Below, in pieces: positions 12,742-17,757 of a stretch of DNA of 64,000 bases; position 1 is the stretch's first letter; each line of letters opens with the position of its first letter. The notes under the pieces are model-generated. The model was given only the letters and a program-made list of their open reading frames with translations. It was not told the DNA's origin and did not search any database. Source of the DNA: an uncultured Coriobacteriaceae bacterium (GTDB lineage: Bacteria; Actinomycetota; Coriobacteriia; Coriobacteriales; Coriobacteriaceae); the NCBI GenBank assembly GCA_944320725.1, contig CALUIM010000009.1, forward strand, positions 62,001 to 126,000. The letters run 5' to 3'. Made by a program: the position numbers and the translations under genes.

Positions 12742-14172
<1,431 letters not shown>

Positions 14173-14218
14173 TTTCTGACGGCGCGATCGCTCTCGACAA
14201 CAACCAAGGTTTCATGCA

Positions 14219-14258
14219 GCCCGGTCCTGGAGTGCATCCAGGACCGGGCTTCGTTTTA
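14219..14258 (+). terminator. Intrinsic terminator after PurF-like gene
   Basis: Perfect 13-bp stem (14219-14231 with 14237-14249), 5-nt loop, followed by TTCGTTTTA. Confidence 0.85.
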
Positions 14259-14321
14259 TAGCTCATTGCTGCCATGGCCTAAGGCCGGGCAACGTTCAGC
14301 TTGGGTGCAGTAGTCGTTTGA

Positions 14322-14462
14322 GCACGAAGTGAGTGTATCGTTTGGATCAGGTCACGTAGAGGCAGGGACATTGAACGTTCGTCTCTGCTGTTTCTGCAGG
14401 TAGTTGCAGTGCGTTCGATTTCGAGGTGCCATGAGCTTACGCGTTTGACACTCACTTCGTGC
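14322..14462. repeat. Inverted-repeat element (15-bp arms, 111-bp interior)
   Basis: GCACGAAGTGAGTGT (14322-14336) and its exact reverse complement (14448-14462) flank a non-coding interior. The left tip GAAGTGAGTGTATCG and the following TTTGGAT match the element at 5604 (GAAGTGAGTGTCTCA then TTTGGAA), so both belong to one repeat family. Confidence 0.55.
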
Positions 14463-14539
14463 ACAGGGAAGCATCTGGTTCGCATCTATTGGATGATTTT
14501 GGATGCGTTCGCAATAGTTTGGCCGCTGCTGATCTTAAA

Positions 14540-14640
14540 TTGAACACTTCATATTGAGCAGACACCGATTTACGTCAAAATTGAACTAATTATCCAATGA
14601 GAATTGAACTTCTCGCTCCACTCGTTCAAAATAAGTTCAA
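14540..14640 (+). promoter_or_regulatory. Cluster of five TTGAAC operator-like sites
   Basis: TTGAAC occurs at 14540-14545, 14581-14586 and 14604-14609, and inverted (GTTCAA) at 14624-14629 and 14635-14640. Four of the five have an AATTGAAC-type extension. They lie immediately upstream of the XRE-aminotransferase gene in an unusually AT-rich stretch and are good candidates for binding by its own helix-turn-helix domain. Confidence 0.55.
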
Positions 14641-14661
14641 TTTCGTTGGATGGGAGGGGAA

Positions 14662-16206
14662 ATGGCCGCGACTGCATTTGCTGAGCGCTTGTCCAAGGCG
14701 ATGACGTCTGCCGGCATGAAGCAGGCGGATCTCATCCGTGCTGCCGCCGAGCGCGGGCGCAAGCTGGGCAAGAGCCAGGTCAGCCAGTACGTGAGCGGCA
14801 AGACGCTGCCCCGCCATGACGTTCTGGCGCTGCTCGCCCAGATCTTGCAGGTCGAAGAGGCGTGGCTTGCGGGGAAGGCCGTTGAGGCTCCCGCGCGAGC
14901 TACCACGCGGCATGAGGCCGCCACCACCGCGTCTCCTCGCGAGCGCACCTCCACCCGTCACGCTGCACATGAACAAAGGAGCACTACGATGCGCACGTTC
15001 AAGAAGTCTTCCAAGCTCGATAACGTTCTCTACGATGTCCGCGGCCCCGTGGCCGACGAAGCTGCTCGCATGGAGGCCGAGGGACTGCGCATTCTGAAGC
15101 TCAACATTGGCAATCCCGCGCCGTTTGGGTTCCGCACGCCCGATGAGGTCATCCAGGACATGCGCCAGCAGCTCCCCGAGTGCGAAGGCTACTCGGATTC
15201 GCGCGGCCTGTTCTCTGCCCGCAAGGCCATCATGCAGTATGCCCAGCTTAAAGGGCTTCCCAACGTGAGCATGGACGGCATCTATACCGGTAACGGCGTT
15301 TCCGAGCTCATCCAACTGTGCATGAACGCACTGCTTGACACTGGTGACGAGGTGCTCATTCCCAGTCCCGATTACCCGCTGTGGACCGCCTGCACCACAC
15401 TCGCCGGCGGCACGCCCGTGCATTATGTTTGCGACGAAGAGGCCGAGTGGAACCCCGACATCGCCGACATGGAGGCGAAAGTCACCCCGCGCACGAAGGC
15501 GATCGTTGTTATCAACCCCAACAACCCCACCGGTGCGGTGTACTCGCGCGAGGTGCTCGAGGAGATTGTCGAGATCGCGCGCAAGAATCAGCTCATGATC
15601 TTCTGCGACGAGATCTACGACCGGCTGTGCATGGACGGCGTGAAGCACATCTCGATTGCCTCGCTCGCGCCCGATTTGCCATGCGTGACGTTCTCCGGTC
15701 TCTCCAAGAGCCATATGATCGCTGGCTACCGTATTGGCTGGATGATTCTTTCGGGCAACAAGCGCTGCATGCAGGACTTTGTCTATGGCATCAACATGCT
15801 CTCCAACATGCGCCTGTGCTCCAACGTGCCCGCGCAGTCGGTGGTGCAGACGGCGCTTGGCGGATACCAGAGCGTGGAGCGCTACGTGGAGCCGGGTGGG
15901 CGCATCTATGAGCAGCGCAACTACGTGTACGAGGCGCTCAACGCGATTCCGGGCATCACCGCGGTGAAGCCCAAGGCGGCGTTCTACATCTTCCCCAAGA
16001 TGGATGTCGAGAAGTTCAACATCACCGACGACGAGCAGTTCGCGCTCGATTTGTTGCACGAAAAGCGCATCCTCATCACCCGTGGCGGCGGCTTCAACTG
16101 GGCAAAGCCCGACCACTTCCGCATCGTATTCTTGCCGGGCATGCGCCAGCTGCACGAGGCGATGGAGGAACTCGCCGACTTCTTCGCGCATTATCGTCAG
16201 GCATAA
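14662..16206 (+). CDS. XRE helix-turn-helix fused to class I aminotransferase (AlaA-like)
   Basis: A 514-residue fusion. Residues 1-75 form an XRE-type DNA-binding domain (GMKQADLIRAAAERG, then KSQVSQYVSGKTLPR). Residues 76-110 are an Ala/Thr/Arg linker. The remaining 405 residues are a complete fold-type I PLP aminotransferase, the exact usual length of AlaA (glutamate-pyruvate). PLP-site motifs: NPNNPTGAVYS, CDEIYD, and the Schiff-base Lys in FSGLSKSHMIAGYRIGW. ATG 14662 follows GGGAGGGG; ATG 14650 has no ribosome site. A second strong start (AAAGGAG then ATG 14989) sits exactly at the enzyme boundary, so free enzyme may also be made. It probably links alanine or keto-acid metabolism to its own transcription. 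Confidence 0.88.
   Translation: MAATAFAERLSKAMTSAGMKQADLIRAAAERGRKLGKSQVSQYVSGKTLPRHDVLALLAQILQVEEAWLAGKAVEAPARATTRHEAATTASPRERTSTRHAAHEQRSTTMRTFKKSSKLDNVLYDVRGPVADEAARMEAEGLRILKLNIGNPAPFGFRTPDEVIQDMRQQLPECEGYSDSRGLFSARKAIMQYAQLKGLPNVSMDGIYTGNGVSELIQLCMNALLDTGDEVLIPSPDYPLWTACTTLAGGTPVHYVCDEEAEWNPDIADMEAKVTPRTKAIVVINPNNPTGAVYSREVLEEIVEIARKNQLMIFCDEIYDRLCMDGVKHISIASLAPDLPCVTFSGLSKSHMIAGYRIGWMILSGNKRCMQDFVYGINMLSNMRLCSNVPAQSVVQTALGGYQSVERYVEPGGRIYEQRNYVYEALNAIPGITAVKPKAAFYIFPKMDVEKFNITDDEQFALDLLHEKRILITRGGGFNWAKPDHFRIVFLPGMRQLHEAMEELADFFAHYRQA
14975..14991 (+). promoter_or_regulatory. Internal ribosome-binding site and start codon for the aminotransferase domain
   Basis: AAAGGAG (14975-14981), a 7-nt spacer and ATG (14989-14991), in frame with the longer protein. 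Translation from here gives a standard 405-residue aminotransferase without the DNA-binding domain. Confidence 0.6.
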
Positions 16207-16231
16207 CTGAACGACGCACATTGGCGTAATG

Positions 16232-16274
16232 GCTGCGGCAACCGGTGTGATGCATCGCGTGCCGCAGCTTTTTT
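16232..16274 (+). terminator. Intrinsic terminator after aminotransferase
   Basis: GCTGCGGCA (16232-16240) pairs with TGCCGCAGC (16260-16268), followed by six T. Confidence 0.85.
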
Positions 16275-16415
16275 GTTGCGCTTGCCGGCCTCGTCGCCTC
16301 ATTCGCGGAACCTTACAAAGCGCTAACACATTCCTCACGATACGCTGCCGCTTCGTGGGTAGGGTGAGCGTATACAACGGCCGAGATGCTATGAGGCAGG
16401 AAGGCGAGGTGCGTG

Positions 16416-16670
16416 ATGGACGAGTATGGAAAGCAGCTTGAGCGCGAGAGCGAGTTCACGGGACTCAAGGGCGCCATTCTTCGTTACGCGGGCAATATCT
16501 ATACGCTCACGTTGGTGGCGCTGTTTCTCGCGGCCTTTGCCGATGCCTACCCCAACGCGGCGTTTGTGCTCGATCCGCTCTCGATCGTGGTGTTCGCGGC
16601 GGGCATCGTGATTCATCCGCTGAAGAAATGGTTCGCACGCGAGCATGCGGTGCGCGGTGCGGCACAATAA
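16416..16670 (+). CDS. Small two-helix membrane protein
   Basis: An 84-residue hypothetical protein. A charged N-terminus (MDEYGKQLERESEF) is followed by two hydrophobic segments, ILRYAGNIYTLTLVALFLAA and FVLDPLSIVVFAAGIVI, and a basic C-terminus (KKWFAREHAVRGAAQ). By the positive-inside rule both ends would be cytoplasmic. ATG 16416 is chosen over GTG 16413 as the stronger codon at the same ribosome site (GGCGAGG). No family recognised. It is flanked by terminators on both sides, so it is expressed on its own. Confidence 0.6.
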   Translation: MDEYGKQLERESEFTGLKGAILRYAGNIYTLTLVALFLAAFADAYPNAAFVLDPLSIVVFAAGIVIHPLKKWFAREHAVRGAAQ

Positions 16671-16709
16671 GCGCGGCGCGGCTGTACGGCACAATAGATC
16701 ATGCTGATT

Positions 16710-16736
16710 GCGCACGTCTTCGGGCGTGCGCCTTTT
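16710..16736 (+). terminator. Intrinsic terminator after small membrane protein
   Basis: GCGCACG (16710-16716) pairs with CGTGCGC (16725-16731), loop TCTTCGGG, then CTTTTG. Confidence 0.75.
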
Positions 16737-16887
16737 GTGCGCATGGAGGTTCTGCCCATATGCGGGGTAGTTTGCCCCTTACACTTGTGTGCGCTGTCGG
16801 AAGACGGCTCGGTATGCCGCCGGGAGGCCGGTGAAGCGGCGCGGAAGCGCCCGGAATGGCGCCTGAGGGCGCGAAAGGACGGACGAT

Positions 16888-17757
16888 ATGTCTGAGTTTG
16901 ATGAGATGGTAGAGCCCGAGATGGACGAGATGGAAGAGGTCGAGGTGGCCGAGGTCGAGGAGACTCCCGCGTCTGAGGCTGATGACGCAGCCGCTGAGGA
17001 TGCCGAGCCCGAGGTGGCTCCTGTTGATATCGACAAGGAGCTGTTCGACAAGCTGAATCGCGCTGCCCGCCTGATGCGTAGCCGCAAGGACGTGCTTGCC
17101 GAGGAGGCCGAGGCCGATGCCGAGCGCCTCGCCAACCTCATCCGCGCGCTCAAGCTTCTGGAGCTCAAGCCCAAGATGGAGCAGAAGGAGATGGCCGACC
17201 TGCTGGGCATGCGCCTTCGCGAGCTCGACCGTCTGCTTGCCCAGGCCGAGAAGCAGGACATCGTGGGCCGTATCCAGCCCGAGGACGAGGATATGCGCGC
17301 CGTGGTGGTCTTCGCGAGCGAGGACGCCGTTGCGATGGCCGAGGCACAGGGCAAGAAGCGCAAGAAGTTCATTCCGCAGCTTTCCTCCGAGGATGCGGAG
17401 CAGCTGCTCGCCCTGCTCGACAAGGTGATTGACCCGCTGACCGAGATGGGTCTCGACGCCGATCGCGGCCCGCGCGCAGGCCGTGACGATCGTGGTCCGC
17501 GCGGCGGCTTCGGCGGTCGTGGCGGCCGTGATGACCGTGGCCCGCGTGGCGGCTTCGGTGGTCGCGGTGGCCGTGATGATCGCGGCGGTCGCGGTGGCTT
17601 CGGTGGCCCGCGCGGCGATCGTGCCGGTCGCGGCAAGCAGTTTGGCGACCGTGGCGGTCGCGGTGGCCGTGGCGGCGACCGCGGTGGGCGCGGCGGCTTT
17701 GGTGGCCGTGGCGACCGTGGTGGCTTCGGCGGCGGTCGTGGCGGTTTTCGCGGCTAA
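16888..17757 (+). CDS. Winged-helix (MarR-like) protein with RGG-repeat tail
   Basis: A 289-residue protein in three parts. Residues 1-50 are highly acidic (EEVEVAEVEE). Residues about 50-190 form a helical, winged-helix-like domain (LFDKLNRAARLMRSRKDV, then MEQKEMADLLGMRLRELDRLLAQAEKQDIVGRI), the pattern of MarR-type DNA-binding proteins. Residues about 192-289 are an RGG/RG-rich disordered tail with three 15-residue repeats of the type RDDRGPRGGFGGRGG. Such tails bind RNA in eukaryotes and in bacterial cold-shock or DEAD-box proteins. The 5' leader (16740-16887) is GC-rich and looks structured. GAAAGGACG precedes ATG 16888. A nucleic-acid-binding regulator is likely; its target is unknown. 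Confidence 0.8.
   Translation: MSEFDEMVEPEMDEMEEVEVAEVEETPASEADDAAAEDAEPEVAPVDIDKELFDKLNRAARLMRSRKDVLAEEAEADAERLANLIRALKLLELKPKMEQKEMADLLGMRLRELDRLLAQAEKQDIVGRIQPEDEDMRAVVVFASEDAVAMAEAQGKKRKKFIPQLSSEDAEQLLALLDKVIDPLTEMGLDADRGPRAGRDDRGPRGGFGGRGGRDDRGPRGGFGGRGGRDDRGGRGGFGGPRGDRAGRGKQFGDRGGRGGRGGDRGGRGGFGGRGDRGGFGGGRGGFRG
17482..17616 (+). repeat. Three in-frame 45-bp tandem repeats encoding RGG units
   Basis: Units 17482-17526, 17527-17571 and 17572-17616 each encode 15 residues starting RDDRG; the first two are identical in protein, the third differs at several Gly/Pro/Arg positions. Confidence 0.85.

Follow-up and report, generated by a model that had tools for sequence, protein, structure and literature searches.

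The standard case in which a DNA-binding domain is combined with an aminotransferase fold is that of the MocR-type regulators (MocR, GabR and PdxR, of the GntR class), which share a layout where an N-terminal DNA-binding domain is followed by a variable linker and a C-terminal fold-type-I aminotransferase. In GabR, the heads borne by the dimer read repeated half-sites. As set out in the accessible portion of PMC5320631, the MocR heads are winged helix-turn-helix domains of the GntR type. The CI repressors of the phages TP901-1 and phi13, compared here from the available portions of PMC4941734, PMC8516035 and PMC7250872, recognize a half-site given as AGTTCAYR; the accessible part of PMC8516035 further reports binding constants of phi13 CI for a pair of these sites (22 and 15 nM) and the loss of specific binding on a C to G exchange of the half-site's central C, and that of PMC4941734 gives an OL oligonucleotide. 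Finally, in N-terminal proteoform pairs a single gene with two in-frame starts yields forms that differ by an N-terminal piece, as in AerR, whose long and short forms have opposite actions according to the available sections of PMC6199135 and PMC11005335.

Here we analyze a gene in which a head of the XRE class is joined to an alanine aminotransferase. It lies in the window, by which we mean the whole stretch of 64,000 nucleotides analyzed, from an uncultured Coriobacteriaceae bacterium. In a literature search, with most subscription papers outside its scope, no XRE-aminotransferase fusion is described in the titles and abstract openings listed.

Results

Architecture of the fused gene

The gene occupies a single open frame on the + strand, from 14650 or 14662 to 16206, and we prefer the start at 14662 because a GGAGG Shine-Dalgarno sequence (14653–14657, + strand, anti-Shine-Dalgarno energy −10.7 kcal/mol) directly precedes it. 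The encoded protein begins with an XRE (HTH_3) DNA-binding domain of the phage TP901-1 CI type (residues 1–72; 14662–14877), continues with a linker (residues 73–109; 14878–14988), of which residues 75–107 are predicted to be disordered (pLDDT < 50), and ends with an AlaA-type alanine aminotransferase of 405 residues (14989–16206 with the stop codon). The first codon of the enzyme part is itself an ATG (M110; 14989–14991), a putative start of free enzyme, and is preceded at a spacing of 7 nt by an internal Shine-Dalgarno sequence, AAAGGAG (14975–14981, −8.1 kcal/mol), all on the + strand. A preliminary description of this DNA had placed an XRE part in frame with a complete 405-residue enzyme and AAAGGAG-N7-ATG (14975–14991) exactly at the head-enzyme junction; both statements are borne out, the first by the one open frame together with HTH_3, Aminotran_1_2 and AlaA matches.

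The gene is flanked on the + strand by an intrinsic-terminator-like hairpin 3' of the upstream gene (14218–14250), which comes from a consensus scan that found 4 such hairpins against 1.9 expected in shuffles, and by a terminator-like hairpin with a T run 3' of the fused gene itself (16243–16264), and therefore looks monocistronic. Control by a riboswitch or other RNA element was considered and rejected, as an Rfam scan of 14000–17000 gave no match. Further downstream, the open frame at 16888–17757 (+ strand) has RGG-rich repeats at its end (GGRGGRDDRGPRGGFGG), and the opposite strand also holds a long open frame.

The enzyme part looks like an ordinary, apparently working AlaA-type aminotransferase. 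It is matched by Aminotran_1_2 (E 5e-57) and by the E. coli AlaA structure 4cvq (E 2e-164), to which it is 56% identical across 401–404 aligned columns, and its best-scoring NCBIfam model is the alanine aminotransferase NF006230, at 357.7 bits and thus under that model's cut-off of 534. Residues Y124, Y238, K349 and R487 of the fusion protein (P0001) align with Y15, Y129, K240 and R378 of E. coli AlaA, which we take, in numbering and roles, to be active-site residues, and all four are invariant in 46 of 46 aligned fusions. Close sequence relation and retained active-site residues are thus shared with AlaA of E. coli, whereas the stand-alone AlaA genes examined differ from the fusion in having neither a head nor TTGAAC box clusters.

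A head related to phage CI repressors

Taken alone, the N-terminal part matches Pfam HTH_3 with 26.3 bits against a cut-off of 23; HTH_3 also matches 19 of the 19 heads scanned, with no GntR match listed. A profile of 19 heads, compared with all solved structures, ranks TP901-1 CI first (E 1.5e-17 to 7e-17 for its four distinct sequences); another XRE structure follows only at E 0.0034, and the two BurrH repeat proteins that rank in between match residues 10–32 only. Foldseek with the predicted head likewise returns TP901-1 CI at ranks 1–4, and a PHROGs search finds general repressor families only. The head shares with TP901-1 and phi13 CI the type of DNA-binding domain and, as shown below, the AGTTCA half-site core, and with TP901-1 CI also a flexible linker to the oligomerizing part (PMC4941734, available portion); unlike in the phage proteins, the C-terminal oligomerization domain is here replaced by an alanine aminotransferase. 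In the literature searched, including the accessible part of PMC11149083, we found no residue contacts of the TP901-1 head to DNA.

Close relatives of the head among phages were sought without success: a scan of viral contigs found none, and the annotated phage repressors among the matches listed are about 44–48% identical to it. The best "phage" records matching the head include contigs that hold the bacterial fused gene; two "Bacteriophage sp." records, L323 (MT839381.1) and L324 (MT838394.1), carry a bacterial XRE-AlaA gene, and that of L324, an unverified record and the single candidate left for a natural split of head and enzyme, is interrupted by an in-frame stop in the linker and lacks the junction ATG. 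Some heads (L174, also L170, L177 and L178) have a short insertion before the recognition helix; in the head of TP901-1 CI, an insertion of 4 residues stands at a comparable position.

Distribution and history of the fusion

The preliminary description had called an XRE head on an aminotransferase unusual, which holds for the literature searched and not for the genomes, as three groups of bacteria commonly have this arrangement. Removal of 20 duplicates left 230 loci: 68 are not fused, and the other 162 are non-redundant fused genes, which come from Coriobacteriia, Bifidobacteriaceae and Lachnospiraceae. In a search of genome contigs, the best 80 of 536 relatives are, judged by their titles, from Coriobacteriia, Bifidobacterium, Lachnospiraceae or other Clostridia. 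Among Actinomycetota, 58 of 396 genomes have a match at E ≤ 1e-60 and, judged by matched range and identity, these matches are fused in the window's order and stand-alone outside it. The family of one Lachnospiraceae genome (G396, locus L072) has a match in 81 of 299 genomes, with about one-third of the matches fused, and that of one Bifidobacterium genome in 54 of 121, with nearly all of them fused.

An unrooted tree of 147 thinned AlaA domains, many of whose inner branches are weakly supported, groups the fused genes together, adjoining stand-alone Lachnospiraceae genes, and contains five changes between the fused and stand-alone labels compared with 48 in shuffles. One of the five is a masked gene, L138, which is counted among the 68 and has a head separated from its enzyme by a run of N; for this reason it was rejected as a natural split of head and enzyme, and so was L262, whose frame is lost around a G run (by eye), probably through an assembly error. 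Three stand-alone genes (L180, L181 and L214) are nested among the fused ones and have none of the boxes described below, and look as if the head had been lost together with the operator. The simplest reading of these sequences would be one fusion event, spread among the three groups, and a few losses. A separate fusion event is probable for one Lachnospiraceae gene (L245, genome G648): its XRE domain, which lies in frame some 310 nt before the enzyme part, differs from the other heads and is not TP901-1-like, and no TTGAAC boxes accompany it. Another fused gene (L322) is carried by a plasmid of Roseburia sp. 831b (NZ_CP135163.1), where it adjoins pdxS, for PLP synthesis, and a gene annotated "PLP-dependent aminotransferase family protein" that we read as MocR-type.

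A phased array of TTGAAC boxes as candidate operator

Upstream of the fused gene, candidate operator half-sites are found as TTGAAC on the + strand (boxes 1 to 3; 14540–14545, 14581–14586 and 14604–14609) and as GTTCAA, in − strand orientation (boxes 4 and 5; 14624–14629 and 14635–14640). Box 5 lies within AAGTTCAATTT, the only perfect match to AAWTTGAACTT in the window's genome, and this match stands at the fused-gene promoter. Such boxes precede fused genes in both orientations and in AAATTGAACTT context, mostly at 4–5 per 150 nt upstream in 79 loci compared with 0.09 expected. At least three boxes within 230 nt are present at 151 of 161 fused genes, the other 10 having fewer, and at none of 66 stand-alone genes, 63 of which are without any box and three of which have one.

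Distances between boxes of the same orientation peak near 11, 21, 31, 41, 52 and 62 bp. For a period of 10.5 bp, the 279 pairs from 82 loci give an nR2 of 43.1, whereas 500 random placements averaged 2.0 and did not exceed 9.5. The period holds separately in Coriobacteriia (12.7) and in the remaining loci (32.0); kinship of the loci makes all these values too high, though it does not account for the two sets agreeing. The boxes contain the AGTTCA core, followed mostly by AT rather than by YR, and because they had been defined before the published half-site was compared, the agreement with TP901-1 and phi13 CI constitutes an independent check. The phage operators have paired half-sites, whereas the boxes here occur in several orientations and spacings and mostly not in the palindromic geometry of those operators.

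In a set of nine Lachnospiraceae genes, the residue that follows GK in the recognition region is Ala, where Thr or Val is usual. Two or more TTGAAC boxes accompany only two of these altered heads, the other seven having 0–1, versus 153 of 153 others; ATGAAC repeats are found in 3/9 versus 4/153 and TAAACTT repeats in 3/9 versus 0/153. The pattern, from a small and related set, is suggestive of a joint change of head and box sequence. DNA binding by the head, as the preliminary description had supposed, thus gains strong support at the sequence level from an operator which that description had missed, as the boxes track the head, are phased and match the site of TP901-1 CI.

A probable dedicated regulator rather than a regulon

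Apart from those at this promoter, the paired boxes of the window's genome are located within stop-free spans that measure 125 to 726 codons, and their numbers are near those of reversed-pattern controls, except for the divergent pair with 5 per strand versus 1, a palindromic arrangement in which each site is counted on both strands. In the window's family, 42 of 59 genomes have a triple-box match (the window's own genome has a different box order and none), and alaA is close by in 29 of the 30 triple-box loci fetched; in the lone exception, L316 (G854:C13), no alaA was found in the 3-kb locus. A wide regulon was rejected, since box clusters are essentially confined to the own promoter and the other paired sites fall inside stop-free spans, and the head seems to be devoted to the control of the gene that encodes it.

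These data also bear on the link between enzyme state and gene control that the preliminary description had raised as a possibility, and on whether the protein could be a sensor in the manner of MocR, in which PLP or an amino acid would switch the DNA binding of the head, possibly at more genes. The domain layout, as in MocR (PMC5320631, accessible portion), and the MocR-type gene and pdxS next to the Roseburia plasmid copy would suit such a role. It is, however, unlikely, considering that box clusters occur almost only at the own promoter (29 of 30 loci checked), that the remaining paired sites of the window's genome fall in the stop-free spans of 125 to 726 codons, and that the enzyme keeps its active-site residues. 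The comparison with MocR made in the preliminary description is apt, although the protein itself lies outside that subfamily: the head is of the phage-CI type rather than GntR (HTH_3 in 19/19), and, unlike in MocR, the enzyme is a close AlaA relative with its active site kept and the gene has a conserved internal start.

A conserved second start at the junction

The junction start is not due to chance, as an in-frame ATG is conserved at the junction or at most 4 codons away in 136 of 162 fused genes. An anti-Shine-Dalgarno energy of −4 kcal/mol or better precedes 135 of these 136 ATGs (median −8.1), a level reached at 345 of the 1820 in-frame ATGs that these genes contain elsewhere, and the median for the starts of stand-alone alaA is −8.7 kcal/mol; the exception, L264, has the junction ATG and no Shine-Dalgarno match. 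The surrounding linker measures 5–143 codons (median 33.5), and its alignment in 46 fusions has no invariant column between 62 and 115. The GG core of the junction site falls in codon phases 1, 0 and 2 in 71, 51 and 10 genes, respectively, and the Arg codon over the site is AGG in 61 of 61 cases, as against only 3.7% of AlaA Arg codons. Codon phase and codon choice indicate that it is the nucleotide string, not the peptide, that the junction conserves. Furthermore, 77 of 136 genes exceed synonymous recodings in Shine-Dalgarno strength at p<0.05, in a test that is conservative in that the peptide itself implies part of the motif. The mRNA around the junction tends to be open: 110 of 136 genes have less structure there than >80% of control windows, and none (0/136) falls in the most structured fifth. 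All of these are counts over related, non-independent genes.

All 26 fused genes that lack the junction ATG are from Bifidobacteriaceae. Nine of them (L071, L190, L265, L266 and L268–L272) have a Shine-Dalgarno-preceded ATG 14–30 codons upstream in the linker. In another 16 the linker offers none, a few of them having GTG or TTG candidates, and one gene, L262, is frameshifted. The second start hence appears to be old and usually kept, and dispensable in this one group; with 26 of 162 genes lacking the junction ATG and 16 of these without replacement, the free form would not be needed everywhere. Seven Bifidobacteriaceae genes (L263 and L267–L272) hold 4–11 TTGAAC boxes inside their linker-coding DNA, and the enzyme-coding part of such genes averages 1.3 per kb. 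In L268–L272 the array precedes the relocated Shine-Dalgarno-ATG, which opens with MEPQFD, and the linker there seems to be written for DNA as much as for peptide.

The conserved ATG might alternatively be a relic, inherited from a stand-alone alaA at fusion, so that only the full-length, autoregulated enzyme would matter. The AlaA tree, which places the fused genes among stand-alone Lachnospiraceae genes whose real starts look alike, and the 16 Bifidobacteriaceae genes that lost the ATG without a Shine-Dalgarno-ATG in its place are both compatible with such an origin. Yet decay would be expected in a linker of 5–143 codons, where 135 of 136 genes keep a strong match, and neither the invariable AGG (61/61) nor the open junction mRNA nor the nine genes with a Shine-Dalgarno-ATG elsewhere in the linker fits a mere remnant, which makes this explanation quite unlikely. 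Two products, fusion and free enzyme, had also been put forward in the preliminary description and are well supported, on comparative grounds, by the retained ATG (136/162), its Shine-Dalgarno match (135/136) and the open junction. Such a pair would resemble AerR-type proteoforms in arising from one gene with two in-frame starts, and would differ from them in that a metabolic enzyme here gains an entire DNA-binding domain in its long form and that the use of the second start is deduced.

Discussion

The fusion itself, its conserved second start, the conservation of the boxes, the tie between boxes and head, and the kinship of the head to a repressor with a known site can be read from the sequences. 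We consider it likely, on this basis, that a captured phage-repressor head makes AlaA self-regulating, most probably by repression, with the conserved second start supplying free enzyme and mixed dimers tuning the feedback. In such a mechanism, the full-length protein would be an AlaA subunit carrying a TP901-1 CI-type head on a flexible linker, and the AlaA dimer would bring two heads together for binding of the phased AGTTCA (TTGAAC) array at the own promoter. The full-length protein would most likely repress its own transcription, whereby the enzyme would set its own level, and free enzyme would be translated from the same message at the junction start and the Shine-Dalgarno sequence belonging to it. 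Mixed dimers with one or no head would have a lower affinity for the operator, so that the gain of the feedback would be determined by how often each of the two starts is used. Use of the second start, repression rather than activation, the mixed dimers and any effect of ligands such as PLP or an amino acid are what we infer beyond the sequences.

The placement of the boxes bears on the sign of the regulation. A promoter scan found no sigma-70-type promoter in the window and thus did not recognize that of the fused gene; by eye, many Atopobiaceae loci have one box at about −35 before a −10-like TAGAGT or TATACT and another box after it, and in many loci boxes are near the start codon, at positions about −17 to −27. 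A box at about −35 could be an upstream activator site, and the head would then activate the promoter in positive feedback; boxes at about −17 to −27 from the start codon fit repression better, and we hold activation to be quite unlikely. HppE-like enzymes carry a Cro-type domain, maybe for folding or oligomerization only, and HppE chains are among the structural matches of the head, but a head of that kind, without DNA binding, is barely credible here, where boxes accompany the head from one gene to the next, recur in helical phase and agree with the site of its closest known relative.

A more far-reaching version of the self-regulating enzyme is one that we advance tentatively and with more doubt than belief. 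The head would have been captured once and spread in gut bacteria; the start ratio, not a ligand, would tune a cooperative array through the mixing of headed and headless subunits; and in L263 and L267–L272, a second array in the linker DNA would serve the inner gene, with the linker peptide as a by-product.

That an ordinary enzyme is here under unusual control is well supported by the sequences compared. Annotation can conceal the regulator as well as the putative second product: the one annotated record examined names the protein simply an aminotransferase. If the proposed mechanism is true, the fusion would be a second, separately evolved solution alongside MocR, with a phage-type head on an apparently working enzyme, a readable operator and a built-in second start. 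Being widespread in gut Coriobacteriia, bifidobacteria and Lachnospiraceae, it would also make a compact model of how an enzyme sets its own level and of how two starts, by their ratio, tune the feedback.
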